A stretch of 64,000 nt of DNA from positions 434,001 through 498,000 of the forward strand of contig NZ_CANMRL010000001.1 in NCBI RefSeq assembly GCF_947500255.1, given 5' to 3'. The stretch is from an uncultured Psychroserpens sp. Lineage in GTDB: Bacteria > Bacteroidota > Bacteroidia > Flavobacteriales > Flavobacteriaceae. The translations under genes and the position numbers were made by a program. Positions 54,291 to 64,000 of this stretch are shown piece after piece (the first letter of the stretch is position 1; every line of letters begins with the position of its first letter). A model generated the notes under the pieces. The model saw only the letters and a program-made list of their open reading frames with translations. It did not search any database and was not told the origin of the DNA.

Positions 54291-54785
54291 TTAATATTTA
54301 CCTGAAAGTCGGGATTCTATATATTGATTTTCTAAATTTAGTTGTGTTAAATGGTCTATAACTGAGAAGAGTTTTTGAAACATTGTTTGCTTTACTTCTC
54401 GACTACTCAACACCATAGCATTATAGGTAGCAATAGCGTTTTGATTTTTATTAATGGTTTCAAGAAGCGTCATTAGGTCGCCATTTGTTTCATTCAAAAT
54501 ACTCATACTAATATAACCTATATGATTAAAATTAGTGTGATTGAACATATATCTGGCTCCTGCTTTTATCGCCTGATTATCTGCTTTAAACTTTTTAATA
54601 TTAACAACAGAGACATTGTTACATTGGGCTTTAATTTCCTTTAGAACAAAGTAAGTATCATCCTTGCTGTGATTATTGACTAAACAAAATTCAATACACT
54701 CAGCTTTATTACAATATTTGATAAAAGAGTTAGTGTTAATTTTCTTTTCGTCATTATGGAATATAATTATGATTCCTATTCTCAT
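54291..54785 (-). CDS. Truncated GT2-like protein lacking the DxD motif
   Basis: A 164-residue protein aligning along its length with residues about 138-250 of the upstream REC-GT2 protein: FCLVNNHSKDDT against LCFVNDGSKDNT, and HIGYISMSILNETNGD against YIGFLDADLSTDLADF. The nucleotide-sugar DxD is replaced by SMS and the acceptor half of the GT-A fold is missing, so catalysis is not expected. It lies 17 bp after the REC-GT2 gene in the same operon. It may be a decayed duplicate or a non-catalytic partner. Confidence 0.78.
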   Translation of the reverse strand: MRIGIIIIFHNDEKKINTNSFIKYCNKAECIEFCLVNNHSKDDTYFVLKEIKAQCNNVSVVNIKKFKADNQAIKAGARYMFNHTNFNHIGYISMSILNETNGDLMTLLETINKNQNAIATYNAMVLSSREVKQTMFQKLFSVIDHLTQLNLENQYIESRLSGKY

Positions 54786-54802: not shown

Positions 54803-55987
54803 TTAGGTAATGTTAAATTCTGATGTCTCCAGTATCATTTTATTATGTTTTTTATGTCTATAAACCCATGCAACTTGTGCAAGTTGACCAACAATTTTTA
54901 TAGAATCTTTCATTGATAATTTAGACCCGTCAGCATGAACCCATCTTTTTAGTGGTTGTTCACAGAGCATTTTTCGTGCAGATTTCAATCCAAAATGATG
55001 TGCTACTCTTTTAAAGATTTCAACATCAAAAATCCATCGTGTAATAAATTTATCTTTAAAAGCAATATTGATAACATCTTTACTGAAAATTTTTGCGCCA
55101 CACTGGGTGTCCTTGAATTTCATTGATAAGACTTTTTTAATAATAAAATTGATTGTTAAGCTTATCATTGCTCTGGAACATTCCTTATTAATATTAGCGC
55201 CCATCCTACAAATTCTTGATCCACTAACTACTTTAAAATTTGAGTTTTCGATTGTTTTAACTAAGTCATCAAAATCAGCTAGATCTGTAGATAAATCGGC
55301 ATCTAAAAAACCAATATAATCAAGATCTTCTTTTTGAGCCATGTGAAGCATTCCTAAACGAACAGCTTCTGCTTTTCCTCCATTTTTATCACAATTATAA
55401 ACAGTAATAAAATCTTCTCGTCCTTTTTGCAAATTCCTTAATACTTGTAATGTATTGTCTTTGCTCCCATCATTAACAAAGCATAAATGATATCCTGTAT
55501 TCTTATCTATATAATCTGTAAACTCTTTACTTAATAATCGTTCTTCTTCATTATAACAAGGAATAACAACACCAACACAACGCTCTTGAATTATAGTATT
55601 GCTTTCTTGATACATTTGTTTTAATTCTGGAATACCAATTAATCGTTTTATACGCACACAAATTTCATTTAAGCTTAGTGGCTTTTTCATATAATCATCT
55701 ATTCCTAACTCGAAACCTTCAATAATTGTATGATCTTGAGTGTTTCCTGACAATACCATAATTGGTGTTTGGGACTTTTTATCTTTTCTAATATGTTTTA
55801 CTATATCTAGTCCAGACATACCTGGCATATTAATATCTACAATTACTAAATCTGGTTTAAACGAATTATACAACTTAAGGCCTTTAACCGAATTTGTTTC
55901 AGTTTTTACGTCGTATCCTAATTCTGTTAATCGCTTTTGTAAAGGAAGTAATACTAATTGTTGATCATCTATTGCTAAAACTTTCAT
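54803..55987 (-). CDS. Response-regulator receiver domain fused to a GT2 glycosyltransferase
   Basis: 394 residues. Residues 1-118 form a complete receiver: acidic pair Asp7-Asp8, phospho-acceptor Asp51 (VIVDINMPGMSG), Ser80 and Lys102 (KKPLSL). A 20-residue linker leads to a GT2 domain like dolichyl/polyprenyl-phosphate glycosyltransferases: VVIPCYNEEER, NDGSKDNT, KNGGKAEAV, DAD at 229-231 (FLDADLS) and GSR, QCGAKIF. No DNA-binding output domain and no clear membrane anchor. Phosphorylation of Asp51 would be expected to switch sugar transfer. First of a two-gene minus-strand operon. Confidence 0.93.
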   Translation of the reverse strand: MKVLAIDDQQLVLLPLQKRLTELGYDVKTETNSVKGLKLYNSFKPDLVIVDINMPGMSGLDIVKHIRKDKKSQTPIMVLSGNTQDHTIIEGFELGIDDYMKKPLSLNEICVRIKRLIGIPELKQMYQESNTIIQERCVGVVIPCYNEEERLLSKEFTDYIDKNTGYHLCFVNDGSKDNTLQVLRNLQKGREDFITVYNCDKNGGKAEAVRLGMLHMAQKEDLDYIGFLDADLSTDLADFDDLVKTIENSNFKVVSGSRICRMGANINKECSRAMISLTINFIIKKVLSMKFKDTQCGAKIFSKDVINIAFKDKFITRWIFDVEIFKRVAHHFGLKSARKMLCEQPLKRWVHADGSKLSMKDSIKIVGQLAQVAWVYRHKKHNKMILETSEFNIT

Positions 55988-56071: not shown

Positions 56072-56114
56072 TGTAGACGAATGGTAGATTGCTGTAGACG
56101 ACTGATAATCGTCT
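56072..56114. promoter_or_regulatory. Two TGTAGACGA direct repeats at 21-bp period plus an inverted AGACGA copy
   Basis: TGTAGACGA at 56072-56080 and 56093-56101 (9-bp repeats, 12-bp spacer) and TCGTCT at 56109-56114 facing the second. A 9-12-9 layout is typical of LytTR-type response regulators. Lies between the divergent REC-GT2 and PTPS-related genes. Confidence 0.6.
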
Positions 56115-56165: not shown

Positions 56166-59100
56166 ATGAAAGAAATAACAAATAAATATTTGATAGTGGC
56201 TATCCTTTTAGGATTGATATTTCATGGAAGTTCTTTATTCTTTACCTTAGAAACTACCTATGATGCATTAATACATTTATTTTTTGCAGATCATTATACA
56301 AATAGCTGGTTTGAACCTTGGAACTATAAATGGTATACAGGGTTTTCAGTAATGGGTTATCCACCATTAGTACATCAAGCTATTGCGCTATTTTCAATGA
56401 TTGGCGGCTTAAAATTTGGTTTATTTACTGTAACCATAATAAGTATATTACTATTTATTACTGGTGTGTATCGGTTTTCATTATTAATAACTACAAATAG
56501 AACTTCTGCTGGTTATGCTGCTTTACTTGCTGTGTTCTCTTCATCATTTATTGAAACCTTACATATCTTTGGTCAGTTACCAAGCATTATCGGGATTTCT
56601 GTTTTAATGCATGCCTTACCTGAAATATACTCGTGGTTAAAAACTGGTAAATATTGGTATTTAGCTACATCACTATCTCTAATTGCCGTAACAGTAACAT
56701 CACATCATGTAACGCCAATTTTTGGGATGGTATTTTTTATTTTTCCTTTAATAGGAATGTTAATCATGGATCATGCTAGAGAACAGGTTAAATCTATGAA
56801 GGCCATTACATTCAAAGTCTTTCTAAACAGTTTTTCTAAGCTTTTAAAACGTATTATTAAATTTGGAATAGCTTCACTTATAATTATAATTGGATGCATT
56901 TTGCCTTATTGGATAAATTCAAAAAACAACCCGATAACTCAGGTCCCAATTCCACATGGATCTAGAGACAATTTTCTTGAAGTTACTTCTTCAGGATTAG
57001 TGTTCTTTTTAATTCCCTGGGGTATATTACTCTTACTATTACCATATATCTTTTATAGATATTATAGCAAACGTTATTTATTCTTTGGTTTATCCATCAC
57101 TATTTTAACTCTTTTAGGAACTGGAGGAACTACTCCTATTCCAAAATTTTTATTAGGTGAGACTGCGTTTAATATTTTAACTCTAGATCGTTTTACGCTC
57201 TGGGCATCAATAATGGCTTTACCATTATTTGGGGAGTTTACTTTTAGATTTGTTCAGGGCGATTTAAAATCTTTGATTCAATTAAAATTTGGTGCTGTAT
57301 ATCATAGAATTTGTGGAGGTGTTCTTGCTGGTCTTTTTATTTTCATGACTATTTTCACTATGAGCTTAGGCTATTTTAGACCATCACAACCCCAAAAAAT
57401 AAAGATGCAGCCCATAGTCAATTTCTTAAACCAAGATGACCATTACAAATGGCGATTCTTAACACTTGGCTTTGGAGATCAAATGGCCTGGTTAAGTTCT
57501 CAAACTAATGCCATGACTGTTGATGGTAATTATCATTCTGCAAGACGATTACCAGAGTTAACAACCAGACCAATAGAGCGCTTAGAGAATTCAAAATTTA
57601 AAGGTGTTGCTGGAATCGGATCTCTGCAACAGTTTCTAACAACTCCAGAAAAGTATAACCTCAAGTATACTTTTTCTAACGATAAGTTCTATGATCCTAT
57701 CTTATATTTTTGTGGATGGCAACGCCTAAGACAACTGGAAAATGGTATTATGGTTTGGGAGCGTTTAAACGTACCTCCTATCCCATCTGTTTTGCCAAAA
57801 GATGATGTTCCTAAATGGCAAAAAATACTTTGGGGAGTTATTCCTATAACAACAGTATTAATAGCTTTTCTTTTAAATATTCAAATGCTTTTGGTAAACA
57901 CACTTAGAACTAAACCTAAAATAATTCCAGAGTTTTTAAAGTTCAAAAGTAACTACTCAAAATTTTCAAATTCTGTACTTAGAATTTCTCATATTTGGTC
58001 GGTAATCTTGGTCCTAGTTTTTATTTATAATATTTACAATTTTTATATTAAAAATGACGCACAACGACATCCAGAAAATGTCATCTTATCCTACTATGAT
58101 GCCTTAGATTTCAAAGAATTTGAAACGGCTTACCAATTAATCAATCCAGCAAGCAATAAAACGATTGCGCAATATATGCTTGAAGTTTCAGTAACTGATG
58201 GACTCCTTAGTAGCTATGCAAAATTAGATGCTATAGAAACTAAAATTCTAAATCAAAATGATAGTTCTGCAACAGTTAAGGTAAAAACCAACTGGATTAC
58301 TCCACTAGAAAAAATAAATAGAGTTGATTACAAATCATTATCAAAGATAAATGACAAATGGTATTTAGAACCCGATGATATAGATACAGATCTGCCACCT
58401 GATCAACTCTTCTCTAATAATGCTACAGGTTATTTTAATCAAGGTCGAAGAAGAATTACAACAGAACAGACACACCATGAAGATGTATTAAAACAACCTG
58501 TATTGGAAGTGCTTTCAGCCAAACTTGTAAAACTTGATAATTCTTATGCCATAATTGGAGAAATTCAAAATATTGATAATGTCCCAGCTGATGTTATTTT
58601 GAAAGGCACATTATACAATGACTCTAATAAAGTATTAGCCACTTACAACGCTAAATATCATATAAAACACAAATTAATGCCTAAAGAAACCAGTGCATTT
58701 AAAATTAATTTTGAAGGTATTGCTTGGTCTCAAACTCAAGATTCTATCCCAAAGGCATTTAATCCGGATGAGTTTACTCCTGTAGAGTTTGAAGAGCAAC
58801 CTACTAAATTCAATTTGCACGCAGCAGGAAATGTTTCCAGTTCTGATCTCTATAAACGCATAGTCATTAGTGATATTGAAATGAATTCAAAACATATTAA
58901 TGGGACTTTATTCAATAGCGGGATACAAGAAGTGACCATTCCTCAACTATTAGTTACATATTACGATGAGAATAAATCTATAACCTGGGTCGATCATAAA
59001 TTTTTAGAAGAAGGAATAAGACAACAACGAAAACAAGATTTTAACTACAAGCTTATGGACAATACTCCTATTCAAGTAATTACAGATAGAATGGATAATG

Positions 59101-59255
59101 TATTTGTTAATGGACTCCCAAATACATCTATTTCTAACAAAGTAGTTCCTAATAGAATTGAAAATCACATATATACTCAACTACAACCTATTAATCATTC
59201 AGAGTTTAGTTATATTAAAATTGAAACTAATGCTTATATTGGAAACCCAAACTAA
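56166..59255 (+). CDS. Large polytopic membrane protein with PTPS-related domain and NTF2-like/FxLYD-like outer domains
   Basis: 1029 residues. An N-terminal multi-helix region (about 8-425) shows the pattern of the 6-pyruvoyl-tetrahydropterin-synthase-related membrane family (YDALIHLFFADHY, WYTGFSVMGYPPLVHQ), probably a GT-C-like fold using a lipid-linked sugar. A loop domain, two more helices (about 553-575, 607-628), an NTF2-like domain (about 635-741) and an FxLYD-like beta domain (about 780-850) follow. Likely works in export or modification of polysaccharide. Stop and next ATG overlap (TAATG). Confidence 0.82.
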   Translation: MKEITNKYLIVAILLGLIFHGSSLFFTLETTYDALIHLFFADHYTNSWFEPWNYKWYTGFSVMGYPPLVHQAIALFSMIGGLKFGLFTVTIISILLFITGVYRFSLLITTNRTSAGYAALLAVFSSSFIETLHIFGQLPSIIGISVLMHALPEIYSWLKTGKYWYLATSLSLIAVTVTSHHVTPIFGMVFFIFPLIGMLIMDHAREQVKSMKAITFKVFLNSFSKLLKRIIKFGIASLIIIIGCILPYWINSKNNPITQVPIPHGSRDNFLEVTSSGLVFFLIPWGILLLLLPYIFYRYYSKRYLFFGLSITILTLLGTGGTTPIPKFLLGETAFNILTLDRFTLWASIMALPLFGEFTFRFVQGDLKSLIQLKFGAVYHRICGGVLAGLFIFMTIFTMSLGYFRPSQPQKIKMQPIVNFLNQDDHYKWRFLTLGFGDQMAWLSSQTNAMTVDGNYHSARRLPELTTRPIERLENSKFKGVAGIGSLQQFLTTPEKYNLKYTFSNDKFYDPILYFCGWQRLRQLENGIMVWERLNVPPIPSVLPKDDVPKWQKILWGVIPITTVLIAFLLNIQMLLVNTLRTKPKIIPEFLKFKSNYSKFSNSVLRISHIWSVILVLVFIYNIYNFYIKNDAQRHPENVILSYYDALDFKEFETAYQLINPASNKTIAQYMLEVSVTDGLLSSYAKLDAIETKILNQNDSSATVKVKTNWITPLEKINRVDYKSLSKINDKWYLEPDDIDTDLPPDQLFSNNATGYFNQGRRRITTEQTHHEDVLKQPVLEVLSAKLVKLDNSYAIIGEIQNIDNVPADVILKGTLYNDSNKVLATYNAKYHIKHKLMPKETSAFKINFEGIAWSQTQDSIPKAFNPDEFTPVEFEEQPTKFNLHAAGNVSSSDLYKRIVISDIEMNSKHINGTLFNSGIQEVTIPQLLVTYYDENKSITWVDHKFLEEGIRQQRKQDFNYKLMDNTPIQVITDRMDNVFVNGLPNTSISNKVVPNRIENHIYTQLQPINHSEFSYIKIETNAYIGNPN

Positions 59256-60481
59256 TGAGACTTAATTTAATCTACATCCAAGTTATAATACTGTTATGTT
59301 TATCTTCTTTTGCGATAAAAACAGATGCTGTAGACAATGTTAGCGTTACAGACATTCAATTATTGACTCAAAAAAACACGTTTCAAGCTGGTGATACTAT
59401 AACACTTCAGTTTTCTACAACAGAATCGATTACTCCATTAATGTACTGCACTAATAGTTATGGATCAACACTTATAAAACCATCTAATAAAGACAATAAA
59501 CTTTACTATAGACTGCCTCAAAATTTGAGTCATAAAATTGGTTCTTTATATTGGAAACTCTTAAATGACACCACTCATATAAATGGAGAAATCAAAATAA
59601 TACCAAAAACACAAGCGGTTAAAATGGAAACTTATATTGGTCCACCCAGCATTGAAGCAGGTGGAACAGACTACACTATGTTAGTTGTCATTCCAACAGA
59701 TGAATTAGACAATCCTTTACCCGAACATACTAGTGTAACTGCTAAACATCAATTTTTAAATGAGATATCCATAGACAGTATACAGACTAAAAACTTGATT
59801 GCTTACAAAACCATAAATTCTAAGGACGAAAGCGGACGAATGCTTGTATCTTCAGAAAGTGTCAATATCAATTCTAAAGAATTTACAATCAATGTACTTC
59901 CTGCAATACCTAAAAGCTTCACAATTTCAGCAGAACAACCTCACAATTATGCTGATGGAAATCAACAGACTGTTTTTTCAACATCAATTTTAAAAGACAA
60001 ATATGGTAACATCGTTAGTGATGGGACTTTCGTCACATTTTCAATAACAACTAGTGAGGGAACTGTTCTAAAAACTTACGGCACAACAATAAAAGGTATC
60101 GCCCAAGCTAGAATGATACATCCAGATCATCAAGCACAGTGGCACATAAAGGCTTATGTTGCTGGTATGGCTGAAAGCAATACAATTGATTTAAACTTTC
60201 AACAAGTTATCAAAGATTTTAACGTTGAGTTTTCAAAACATAATAGAACAATTACTGTTGGCCCATTACAAAGTTTTATGAATCAAATGATTCCCGATGG
60301 ATTACAAGTGAAGCTATTCATTTATAAAAATAATGAGTTATTAGAACAACTCAACAAAACCTCTGTAGATGGTTATGTTCGTTTTAATCTAAAACCAAAT
60401 ATTGTACAAAATGACAGCTATGATTTTATTATCAAAACTGCAGGTATTGAACAATCCTTTAACACAAAAACGCTATGGTAA
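59255..60481 (+). CDS. Secreted Ig-like domain protein of the polysaccharide cluster
   Basis: 408 residues, signal peptide (LLCLSSFAIKTDA). All-beta; at least three Ig-like segments can be seen: TDIQLLTQKNTFQAGDTITLQF (shown in part), a middle METYIGPPSIEAGG region, and an invasin/Big1-like GNQQTVFSTSILKDKYGNIV block (about 240-315). No catalytic motif. Overlaps the upstream gene by 1 bp and the GH gene by 7 bp, so the three are translated together. It may be a periplasmic scaffold for the polysaccharide machinery. Confidence 0.8.
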   Translation: MRLNLIYIQVIILLCLSSFAIKTDAVDNVSVTDIQLLTQKNTFQAGDTITLQFSTTESITPLMYCTNSYGSTLIKPSNKDNKLYYRLPQNLSHKIGSLYWKLLNDTTHINGEIKIIPKTQAVKMETYIGPPSIEAGGTDYTMLVVIPTDELDNPLPEHTSVTAKHQFLNEISIDSIQTKNLIAYKTINSKDESGRMLVSSESVNINSKEFTINVLPAIPKSFTISAEQPHNYADGNQQTVFSTSILKDKYGNIVSDGTFVTFSITTSEGTVLKTYGTTIKGIAQARMIHPDHQAQWHIKAYVAGMAESNTIDLNFQQVIKDFNVEFSKHNRTITVGPLQSFMNQMIPDGLQVKLFIYKNNELLEQLNKTSVDGYVRFNLKPNIVQNDSYDFIIKTAGIEQSFNTKTLW

Positions 60482-61992
60482 GTTATAATAAGAATATACT
60501 TCGCGTTATTGTAATCGCCTCATACATTATAATTATTACATTAATAATTTATGGTATTAGTGCATTGTTAGCTTATCTTAACACTGGTGCAGATCGCAGT
60601 ACAATACTTCATACTGAAATTCAAAAAATTGATCAATACCTCCCTAAAGTTACCTGGGCACCTCTGTCTAATGAAGGCAGACCAATAGATTCTGAAAATT
60701 TAAATAAGATAGAAAATAATTATTTAGACGCTTGGTATGTCAAACATATTGCCTACAAAACTAATACTACAGCAGGCATCAAAGATTATTATACTGATAG
60801 TGCTAGATTAAATTTATTCAATTTTATTGAACTCAATGCTGCACAAAACATAAGCATAGAATCTACAACACTTGAGCATCATCCATCACTAGAATTTTTT
60901 AGTGAAGATGGTCAATTAGCTGTAATTACAGATAAAGATGTTATTGAATACAAACGTATTTTCCAAAATGAATTATTGGTTTTAGAGACTACTGAAATAT
61001 CTACTTACAAGATTATATTATTACTTGAAGATGGATTTTGGCGCATTAGACATCTCGTAAAGGAATCTACTGAAAATTATGACCCGATAGCAACAGCAAT
61101 TTCAACTAAAAACTTAAACATCCAAGGGATTAATTATTATCCGCAAGCTACACCTTGGGATATGTTTGGGGAAGCATTTTCAGCAGATATTATTACAAAA
61201 GATTTTAAGACGATTAAAGATGCTGGTTTAAATTCCGTTCGCATATTTATTCCATATGAAGACTTTGGGAAAGCAGATGTTGATGCTGAAAAACTAGAAA
61301 AGCTAAAGCACACTTTAGATGCAGCTCAAGCCAATCATCTCGGTGTTGTTGTAACACTTTTTGATTTCTATGGAGATTACTCGATAATAGATTGGACTTT
61401 GAATATGCGGCATGCAGAAACAATTGTAACAGCTCTTAAAGATCATAAAGCCATTGTAGCTTGGGACATTAAAAATGAACCTAACTTAGATTTTAAATCT
61501 CGAGGAAAAGACATGGTAGTTGCTTGGTTAAAAAACATGGTCCAACTGGTAAAATCTAAAGACCAAAACCATCCCGTTACTATTGGTTGGTCAAATACTG
61601 AAAGTGCATCAATATTAAAAGACAAAGTAGACTTTGTGAGCTTTCATTATTATGAAGATCTTGAGCTACTACAAGATGCAATAAAAACTATGAAAGCAGA
61701 AATTCCGAACAAAACAATAGTCCTAGGAGAATTTGGAATGTCTTCTTATAATGGGTTCTGGAAGCCCTTCGGTAATTCTGATGAAGATCAAGCCAATTAC
61801 CATAAAAAAGCCCAAGAGATTATTGCAACTAATAACTTACAATATATGTCTTGGACACTTTATGATTTTGAGAATATACCTAAGAACGTCGTAGGAAAAC
61901 TTCCTTGGCGTAAAGATGCTCAAAAGCAATTTGGCTTTATAGATAAAAATGGAGCAAAAAAGTTAGCATTTAAATATATTTCTGGGCAGTAG
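60475..61992 (+). CDS. Membrane-anchored GH5-like glycoside hydrolase with NTF2-like domain
   Basis: 505 residues. N-terminal membrane anchor (about 8-34), an NTF2-like domain (about 80-200), then a clan GH-A TIM barrel. Acid/base Glu335 (DIKNEPN) and nucleophile Glu419 (VLGEFGMS) are in the expected strands 4 and 7, with SFHYYED before the latter. It resembles GH5/GH2-core proteins that process beta-linked polysaccharides in synthesis loci. Its 3' end overlaps the converging GT4 gene by 23 bp. Confidence 0.85.
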   Translation: MVSYNKNILRVIVIASYIIIITLIIYGISALLAYLNTGADRSTILHTEIQKIDQYLPKVTWAPLSNEGRPIDSENLNKIENNYLDAWYVKHIAYKTNTTAGIKDYYTDSARLNLFNFIELNAAQNISIESTTLEHHPSLEFFSEDGQLAVITDKDVIEYKRIFQNELLVLETTEISTYKIILLLEDGFWRIRHLVKESTENYDPIATAISTKNLNIQGINYYPQATPWDMFGEAFSADIITKDFKTIKDAGLNSVRIFIPYEDFGKADVDAEKLEKLKHTLDAAQANHLGVVVTLFDFYGDYSIIDWTLNMRHAETIVTALKDHKAIVAWDIKNEPNLDFKSRGKDMVVAWLKNMVQLVKSKDQNHPVTIGWSNTESASILKDKVDFVSFHYYEDLELLQDAIKTMKAEIPNKTIVLGEFGMSSYNGFWKPFGNSDEDQANYHKKAQEIIATNNLQYMSWTLYDFENIPKNVVGKLPWRKDAQKQFGFIDKNGAKKLAFKYISGQ

Positions 61993-63202
61993 GTGATTTT
62001 AAATCAGTTCTAGAACATGATATATTGTGAGTCAATATAGCATCAAATGCATTCAAATACATATCTGTAATCTTTGTCATTGGAAAAGCTGTAGCCGCTT
62101 TATAATTTGCTTGTCCGAGAGCCTTTCTGTAATCACTATTAGTAACAATAGACTCTATAGCTACTACTAGACTTTCTAAAGCATTAGGGTCAAAAAATTC
62201 ACCTTGATACCCTTCATCCTTAACCAACAAAGCCAAATCTCCTAAATCTGGCATAACTACAGCTTTTCCGTAGCTTCCAGCCTGATGCAATACACCAGAA
62301 CTTCCAGTTGTTGATGTATAAGGGAATACAACTACTGCACTCTCTTTGAATAATTGAGGGACTTCATCTTCTTCTACATAGCCTGTAAACCTAACTTGTG
62401 GCACATGCTTATAGGTGTCTTGTACTTTTGCTAAATATCCTGGTACATTTGGGTTATCTGTTCCAGCAATTACAATTTCAATATCCAATCCTGTTGAAGC
62501 TCTAACTCGTTCTACAGCTTCTATCATTGATTCCACTTTTTTATAAGTGCCAAACTTACCAAAAGTCATCACTTGTAGAGGACCAGTAGGGATTGAATAG
62601 TTTGGTTCTTCTTCACTAATTTCAAAAGTACCATGTGGAATTAATATGACATTTTCGGCTTTATATTTCTTTTCTAATATATTCACATATTTTTGCATGG
62701 TTACAGCAACAGTATCTGCTTGCAATATTAATCTGGTTAAAGTTGTACCTATAAAACCATAAAGCTTTTGCATAAGTTTATTTGATGTAAATCCTGCAGA
62801 TCCTAGATCTACTTCCTCTAGAATATTATGCAGTAATACGATGTTAGGAATACGTTTCAATTTACAGACCATCGGTAATAGTAACCCTAAAGCTGCTGCA
62901 ATTTTCTTGTCTCCAAATTTCATAAATTGAAGATTGAATAGTACCACATCTGGTTTTGTAGCATTTATAGCTTTAGTCACTGTTAAGATATTAGAGTAGC
63001 TATTAAATGCCCAACAATCTTTAACTGTTATTTTACAGCCATTCTCGGCAAAAGTGATGTCTTTACTTCCTTCTGTTTTATCTGTAAGTAGTATAAGTTC
63101 TTTAATAGATTCTTTTTGTCTGAACTGTTTAACTAAGTGGTATGCATATTCATTTAAAGTTACTTTACTTGGCGGATATGCTGTTACAATTGCTAGTTTC
63201 AT
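61970..63202 (-). CDS. GT4 family glycosyltransferase
   Basis: 410 residues, GT-B fold. N-terminal acceptor domain (IVTAYPPSKVTLNEYAYHLV) and C-terminal donor domain with FGKFGTYKKVESMIEAV, IAGTDNPN, FTGYVEEDEVPQLF and the conserved VVVFPYTSTTGSSGVLHQA block. No membrane anchor. Likely adds a sugar during exopolysaccharide repeat synthesis. Downstream of the flippase gene by 123 bp, with a 21-bp-spaced repeat pair in the gap. Confidence 0.92.
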   Translation of the reverse strand: MKLAIVTAYPPSKVTLNEYAYHLVKQFRQKESIKELILLTDKTEGSKDITFAENGCKITVKDCWAFNSYSNILTVTKAINATKPDVVLFNLQFMKFGDKKIAAALGLLLPMVCKLKRIPNIVLLHNILEEVDLGSAGFTSNKLMQKLYGFIGTTLTRLILQADTVAVTMQKYVNILEKKYKAENVILIPHGTFEISEEEPNYSIPTGPLQVMTFGKFGTYKKVESMIEAVERVRASTGLDIEIVIAGTDNPNVPGYLAKVQDTYKHVPQVRFTGYVEEDEVPQLFKESAVVVFPYTSTTGSSGVLHQAGSYGKAVVMPDLGDLALLVKDEGYQGEFFDPNALESLVVAIESIVTNSDYRKALGQANYKAATAFPMTKITDMYLNAFDAILTHNISCSRTDLKSPTAQKYI

Positions 63203-63325: not shown

Positions 63326-64000
63326 TTAACTTTTTGACGCTTTCAATTTTGAGTTTGATAAAAAGTATAGAATCTGAATAACAAGTAAACATACCATCGC
63401 TAAGATTTGCATATGTACAACTTGTTCAAGGCTGTCATGAAAGAAGATGACCAAAGCCATTTGGAGCATTCCAAAAAGTCCAGAAAAAACCACTGGAATA
63501 TACATATCTAACGACAGATAGTAATACGCAAAGATATTAGAGATGGCAAATAAACCTGTTGCCAGTGCATATTTCCATAGTAAAGGAGCCATGGCTAAAT
63601 AACTATCTCCAAATAACAGATTAATCGCTGTTTCAGGATATAAAGCACAAATAGTAACTATTACTAGTGCAATCATCGCTATGTATCCAACGTATTTAAA
63701 TAAAATTGGTGCAGTAGCCTTTCCTTCTTTTTTAAGTTGAACTACTGTTGGAAGTAATAGCATAACAAACATCCATGCTAAAAAATACACGATACGACCA
63801 ATAAGCGCTAAAGAGGCATATAGTCCTGCTTCATAGGATTCAAAATAGTGTTTAACCAATAAAATGTCACTATTATTTATAATGATTTGAGTGAGTTCAT
63901 AAAAAGCGGTAATCACAAAAAAACGAGTCACTTGTTTTGATGTAGTAGTTTCAATATCAAATGAGGTTTTAAATCGGAAATATCTAAACCTGAATGGTAT
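63326..64000 (-). CDS. Polysaccharide flippase (Wzx/MATE-like), 5' end off window
   Basis: The minus-strand frame is open to the right edge (first visible residues IPFRFRYFRFKTSFDIETTT), so at least the N-terminal half is missing; the GTG at 63931 is internal, not the start. The visible 225 residues hold about six hydrophobic helices with the pattern of oligosaccharide flippases (NNSDILLVKHYFESYEAG, ARIVYF-like loop, MLLLPTVVQLKKEGK). It would move lipid-linked repeat units across the inner membrane. Precedes the GT4 gene. Confidence 0.87.
   Translation of the reverse strand: MPFRFRYFRFKTSFDIETTTSKQVTRFFVITAFYELTQIIINNSDILLVKHYFESYEAGLYASLALIGRIVYFLAWMFVMLLLPTVVQLKKEGKATAPILFKYVGYIAMIALVIVTICALYPETAINLLFGDSYLAMAPLLWKYALATGLFAISNIFAYYYLSLDMYIPVVFSGLFGMLQMALVIFFHDSLEQVVHMQILAMVCLLVIQILYFLSNSKLKASKS

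Follow-up and report, generated by a model that had tools for sequence, protein, structure and literature searches.

Receiver proteins with an enzymatic output include PorX of Bacteroidota, whose output domain is unrelated to the family 2 glycosyltransferases (GT2). Fusions of receivers to glycosyltransferases (GTs) are already in print: PMC5847659 describes, for Methanobacteriaceae (MTH_548), a BcsA-like, cellulose-synthase-like GT of Pfam PF13641 that carries one or two receivers and occurs in three archaeal genera. Here we analyse a 64,000-nucleotide stretch (the window) from an uncultured Psychroserpens sp. (contig NZ_CANMRL010000001.1, positions 434,001 to 498,000), in which a receiver is fused directly to a polyprenyl-phosphate-type GT2 in a protein of 394 residues (REC-GT2, positions 54803–55987, minus strand). 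The fusion resembles the MTH_548 type in combining a receiver with a GT2-superfamily domain, in its enzymatic kind of output and in its narrow lineage. Unlike the archaeal PF13641 proteins it is bacterial, matches PF00535 best and has a DPMS/GtrB-like fold, which sets the two apart by description. An earlier reading of the letters alone (the sequence-only reading) considered receiver outputs on glycan synthesis rare, which stands in kind, although the methanobacterial fusions had been published. The open-licence papers listed included none on such a bacterial REC-GT2, and older surveys may hold cases. What is new here is the alternation of receiver-bearing and receiver-less synthases, the co-occurrence with an Hpt protein, the promoter boxes shared with its operon, and the correlation between the DxD motif and a GT-C-fold membrane protein (MEM) encoded alongside.

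REC-GT2 is a single open reading frame without interruption. Its receiver (residues ∼1–117, 55637–55987) matches Response_reg (PF00072, residues 3–113, E 6.5e-26, above cut-off), and residues 1–119 of the structure model match receivers in structural comparison. This response-regulator fold carries the expected acidic pair, phospho-acceptor Asp, Ser/Thr and Lys: D7, D51 (codon 55835–55837), S80 and K102 are identical in 64/64 aligned sequences and D8 in 63/64, the alignment consisting of 60 full-length loci, three second copies and the window. The GT2 domain (residues ∼138–380, 54848–55576) matches Glycos_transf_2 (PF00535, residues 140–306, E 7.3e-21, 75.3 bits, above cut-off), with PF13641 below cut-off (19.8 bits against 27). 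It has a GT-A fold with a DxD motif (DAD, 229–231), its nearest solved structures are DPMS, GtrB and ArnC, and D229 and D231 are invariant across 26 aligned rows. The sequence-only reading had thus placed all five receiver residues, and D229-A230-D231 within an intact polyprenyl-phosphate-type GT2, correctly. A search of the GT2 half for a transmembrane helix found none (top 19-residue Kyte-Doolittle window 1.24), so REC-GT2 is at most a soluble, DPM1-like member of the polyprenyl-phosphate GT2 synthases; eukaryotic DPM1 is likewise without C-terminal transmembrane helices of its own. Like DPMS, GtrB and ArnC, the last with ArnT-type partners, it combines a GT-A fold and DxD with a GT-C-fold protein encoded alongside; unlike GtrB and ArnC, it has an N-terminal receiver and no transmembrane helix. 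Architecture and enzyme class are firm. Sugar-transfer activity is predicted from sequence and model, and the GT2 half possibly uses GDP-mannose, a sugar that we infer.

Full-length relatives (rows spanning residue 1 or 2 to at least 373) occur at 60/80 loci among the matches listed, at 51–79% identity and nearly all in Flavobacteriaceae. A sample of 395 Bacteroidota genomes gave 14 matches, 12 of them fusions and two GT2-only; 11 of the 12 fusion genomes are Flavobacteriaceae, the window's own included, and one belongs to another family of the class. In a GT tree of 54 rows, in which 28 (not all) fused rows were included and the fragment L094:6991 was left out, the fused GT halves fall into a single clade (support 98/94), which argues for one fusion origin. 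With such a clade and full-length homologues at these identities, a chance fusion, a frameshift or an assembly join can be ruled out with near certainty; the last two had been named by the sequence-only reading as grounds for refutation. A search of the window's own genome found no second REC-GT2. Three loci elsewhere hold two copies each (L025:8001-10393, L052:4215-9173 and L048:4222-9170), one of the two in L025 having N in place of D8. A link to anti-phage defence is not favoured, the receiver matching SduA only weakly (E 0.0018).

REC-GT2 and MEM (56166–59255, plus strand, 1029 residues) are divergently encoded within a polysaccharide cassette, which bears out the glycan setting suggested earlier. 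The predicted structure of MEM has a GT-C membrane fold, making it a probable acceptor-side GT. Among 149 family genomes the fusion is found in 34 and MEM in 38: 31 have both, seven have MEM with a receiver-less GT2 (GT2-only) and three have the fusion without MEM, whose absence was called at E 1e-100. In all seven MEM genomes lacking the fusion the receiver-less GT2 (271–282 residues, 43–47% identity to the GT half) adjoins MEM. No separate receiver gene lies directly beside GT2-only in loci L087–L093; lone receivers precede the fusion in L005 and L006. GT2-only and a separate REC-GT2 occur together in two Aquimarina genomes, one Saprospiraceae and one Chitinophagales metagenome-assembled genome (MAG), and the gene maps of G536 and L063 place GT2-only next to MEM.

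The fate of the catalytic residues follows MEM. Twenty-one conserved GT positions were read in all 34 fusion genomes, a comparison that bears only on the pairing with MEM. Where MEM is present, all 21 are intact in a copy in 28 of 31 genomes, the window's included; in G106 and G062 the fusion is cut by contig ends and every readable position is intact, and G123 has two changes, both outside DxD. DxD itself is intact in all 31 fusion genomes that have MEM. In the three that lack MEM it is damaged in every case, G113 having 13/21 positions changed, G117 12 changed and two gaps, and G077 four changes, including DAG in place of DAD. All 34 fusion genomes have a copy that retains the five receiver residues. 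GT catalytic residues are thus kept where MEM is kept. Together, gene content and what becomes of these residues give good support to a pairing of REC-GT2 with MEM. Damaged second copies also stand beside an intact one at L048:4222 (GT half damaged) and L096:1429 (two receiver residues lost as well). The sampled genomes also offer natural controls, namely cassettes with and without a receiver, and receivers retained on catalytically broken GTs. The proteins at L094:8142-9275 and L095:8351-9490 keep the five receiver residues, have lost the GT catalytic motifs and come from genomes without the GT-C partner, and can be described as receiver pseudo-enzymes.

About 17 kb from the fusion, at C1:505669–510134, one strand encodes a LytTR regulator, an Hpt-like protein, a PAS-PAS-PAS-GAF kinase, an H-NOX protein and a lone receiver. 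H-NOX proteins are marked by a haem His and a YxSxR motif. The one encoded here, beside the kinase, matches HNOB (E 3e-39, Pfam) and carries H102 and YKSSR at 133, identifying an H-NOX operon whose signal is probably nitric oxide (NO). The Hpt assignment varies in strength: of five proteins tested in Pfam, one lies above cut-off, three below (E up to 0.043) and one has no match, and a sequence search of the PDB gave no meaningful match. An Hpt orthologue is present in 33/34 fusion genomes and 27/115 others, sharing a contig with the fusion in 29 genomes and lying no more than 40 kb from it in 28; H-NOX is present in 30/34 and no more than 40 kb away in 26. In two Aquimarina genomes REC-GT2 lies away from the cassette, beside its own second copy of Hpt (25 and 36 bp between stop codons), an arrangement that favours direct coupling. 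In other genomes the operon is extended by a FIST (NosP-like) protein and a second kinase. Single clusters at L112:474-6296, L097:12398-18229 and L044:3895-9089 hold H-NOX and FIST, two kinases, one Hpt and LytTR, in which two candidate NO sensors would converge on one Hpt.

The usual explanation of how NO controls matrix polysaccharide invokes cyclic-di-GMP (c-di-GMP). The present system resembles NO–biofilm links elsewhere in its polysaccharide-related output, and H-NOX/NosP signalling in that H-NOX has a histidine kinase and receivers as neighbours, with FIST/NosP-like proteins in some clusters. Published H-NOX and NosP pathways lead to c-di-GMP or quorum-sensing outputs (PMC8738867, PMC12570481). 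Unlike the c-di-GMP systems, the window's own genome gave no GGDEF match at E 0.001 (the control search was positive in 8/14 genomes), so that c-di-GMP seems to be lacking; here a LytTR regulator and a sugar-lipid synthase are the candidates for output. No flavobacterial relay from H-NOX to polysaccharide was recognised among the open-licence papers listed.

A second link between operon and cassette lies in the DNA. Promoter comparison revealed a LytTR-like double box, TAGACGAATGG-N10-TAGACGA (56074–56101, plus strand), in the divergent promoter between REC-GT2 and MEM. LytTR sites consist of two repeats of 9–11 nt separated by 11–13 nt, as given in PMC4847170, and the double box agrees in repeat length and spacing, a likeness of geometry only that makes these candidate binding sites. 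The sequence CCATTCGTC matches the AlgR box CCGTTCGTC, as quoted from PMC4064291, at 8/9 positions, the resemblance being to the reverse complement of our box. A degenerate form occurs in 15/46 orthologous intergenic regions (shuffle mean 0.04, maximum 1), the 46 being drawn from the window, from seven GT2-only loci and from 38 loci in which REC-GT2 and MEM diverge within 900 bp of each other; start-to-start spacing is 21 bp in 15/46 promoters and 22 bp in two, with none at 15–20 or 23–32 bp. Scanning the window's own genome (4.0 Mb) gave 17 sites with at most two mismatches, against four for a control pattern. Besides the defining promoter, three sites have at most one mismatch. Two precede the first gene of the H-NOX operon, by 82 bp and by ∼0.5 kb, the more distant one lying just before a 98-residue open reading frame; the other is found at C1:11301. 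Sites with two mismatches include one between the GT4 and flippase genes of the cassette and one before a porin, a site that fails a stricter pattern. L097 and L098 also have the double box ahead of their H-NOX operon; it is absent from the scanned upstream regions of L096, L110 and L112, that of L112 being upstream of its H-NOX operon. Its presence in the fusion promoter, common to part of the orthologues, makes transcriptional control probable as well, and these sites suggest one regulon holding both relay and cassette, with the boxes presumably bound by the LytTR regulator of the H-NOX operon.

Taken together, we favour, at a probability of roughly 0.55, a phosphorelay, probably NO-responsive, that controls both cassette transcription and, through the receiver, the supply of polyprenyl-phosphate sugar. 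REC-GT2 would then be a response regulator with a DPMS/GtrB/ArnC-type synthase of polyprenyl-phosphate sugar as its output domain. It would load sugar onto polyprenyl phosphate, from which MEM would pass it on to a polysaccharide; the remainder of the cassette (GT4, Wzx-like flippase, glycoside-hydrolase-like and Ig-like proteins, TPR outer-membrane protein) would assemble and export this polymer. Phosphorylation of D51, for which the Hpt encoded in the nearby operon is the likeliest route, would alter synthase activity or membrane recruitment with a sign that we infer, while the LytTR regulator would act on transcription via the shared double boxes. If true, a lipid-linked sugar synthase as direct output of a phosphorelay would explain how gas sensing reaches surface polysaccharide without c-di-GMP, and how polysaccharide building is switched on and off without that messenger. 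A wider account, which we hold tentatively and at somewhat less than even odds, is that in flavobacteria without c-di-GMP the H-NOX and NosP-like sensors, kinase and Hpt phosphorylate the synthase receiver and set lipid-linked sugar supply within seconds, with LytTR transcription in parallel; receiver-bearing and unregulated synthases would be alternatives in evolution, and where the cassette has been lost the receiver would survive on a dead transferase, in signalling or phosphate buffering.

The simple post-translational switch of the sequence-only reading is complicated by the double box in the fusion promoter, and by gene content indicating that the cassette also works with a receiver-less GT2 (7/38 MEM genomes). 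Several observations weigh against the favoured phosphorelay. Hpt is present in 7/7 MEM genomes with GT2-only and in 20/108 genomes with neither gene; because it is equally tied to receiver-less cassettes, linkage is no proof of phosphotransfer to REC-GT2, and the LytTR regulator alone could explain it. Four of the 34 fusion genomes lack H-NOX, including G123 with its completeness of 99%, and the Saprospiraceae genome and Chitinophagales MAG with REC-GT2 gave no Hpt at E 1e-8. The Fisher test of Hpt co-occurrence (p 1.8e-15) and the shuffle tests ignore relatedness; the double box is missing from 31/46 promoters, the Maribacter group included, and its pattern was drawn from the same promoters, so that it shows conservation and is not an independent test. 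The MEM model is of middling confidence (pLDDT 61), Foldseek by itself gave it no match under E 0.001, and a sequence search of the PDB gave no match either.

These points leave room for a receiver that is phosphorylated by another kinase, or serves mainly as a dimerisation or docking module, with the H-NOX operon acting on the cassette only through LytTR. The seven genomes that retain the Hpt operon with a receiver-less GT2 are what this alternative expects, the double boxes would be a sufficient transcriptional link, and the window's own genome holds many further receiver matches. Moreover, L057, L058 and L109 have no Hpt operon beside REC-GT2; L058 and L109 instead have a kinase-like open reading frame nearby, within ∼6.5 and 2.5 kb respectively. 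The invariance of the phospho-acceptor residues and the adjoining Hpt copies in Aquimarina argue the other way, and we consider the alternative rather unlikely, while phosphate transfer from the H-NOX operon to REC-GT2 appears likely. Quite improbable, in our view, is that REC-GT2 is mainly a regulator whose GT fold is a binding module, as it may be in the broken copies, with the sugar donor made by a different enzyme. G113 and G117 do keep the receiver D, D, D, S and K despite heavily changed GT positions, and a companion protein, miniGT, is constrained although it likewise has no DxD; but intact GT positions in nearly every MEM-bearing fusion genome, with only the two changes of G123 among the remainder, speak for a working transferase.

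The companion, miniGT (54291–54785, minus strand), is a 164-residue half GT-A domain that starts 17 bp after REC-GT2. It is labelled at 17/60 full-length loci among the matches listed, and the gap is 17–27 bp in 11/11 measured loci. In nine pairs nonsynonymous differences (pN 0.14–0.37) are in every case far below synonymous ones (pS 0.60–0.88, near saturation in several pairs, which makes the ratio rough), so miniGT is constrained by selection; this and the constant gap disfavour a decaying pseudogene. In sequence it stands somewhat nearer to GT2-only (25–37% identity) than to the fused GT (∼21–29%), and miniGTs form a separate clade (100/99). That it serves as a partner or scaffold is no more than a guess.

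Beyond MEM, Pfam assigns the cassette an Ig-like protein (59255–60481, plus; Big_1/invasin D3-like, below cut-off), a glycoside-hydrolase-like protein (60475–61992, plus; Glyco_hydro_2_C TIM barrel), a GT4 (61970–63202, minus) and a polysaccharide flippase (Polysacc_synt, 63326–64000, minus, extending beyond the window to C1:498585). In the Chitinophagales MAG MEM is found as two adjacent open reading frames (L063:1093-4096), a natural split or a sequence error. Small STAS-domain proteins, one assigned by Pfam and the rest by BLAST, stand beside the flippase or REC-GT2 at L087:17063-17678, L110:17344-17965 and L031:7540-7815, possibly as an extra layer of control. Between porin and signalling operon, L085:16594-18831 encodes a secreted type IX (Por_Secre_tail) protein with DUF6923, and L044 and L110 have large secreted-looking proteins at a comparable position.
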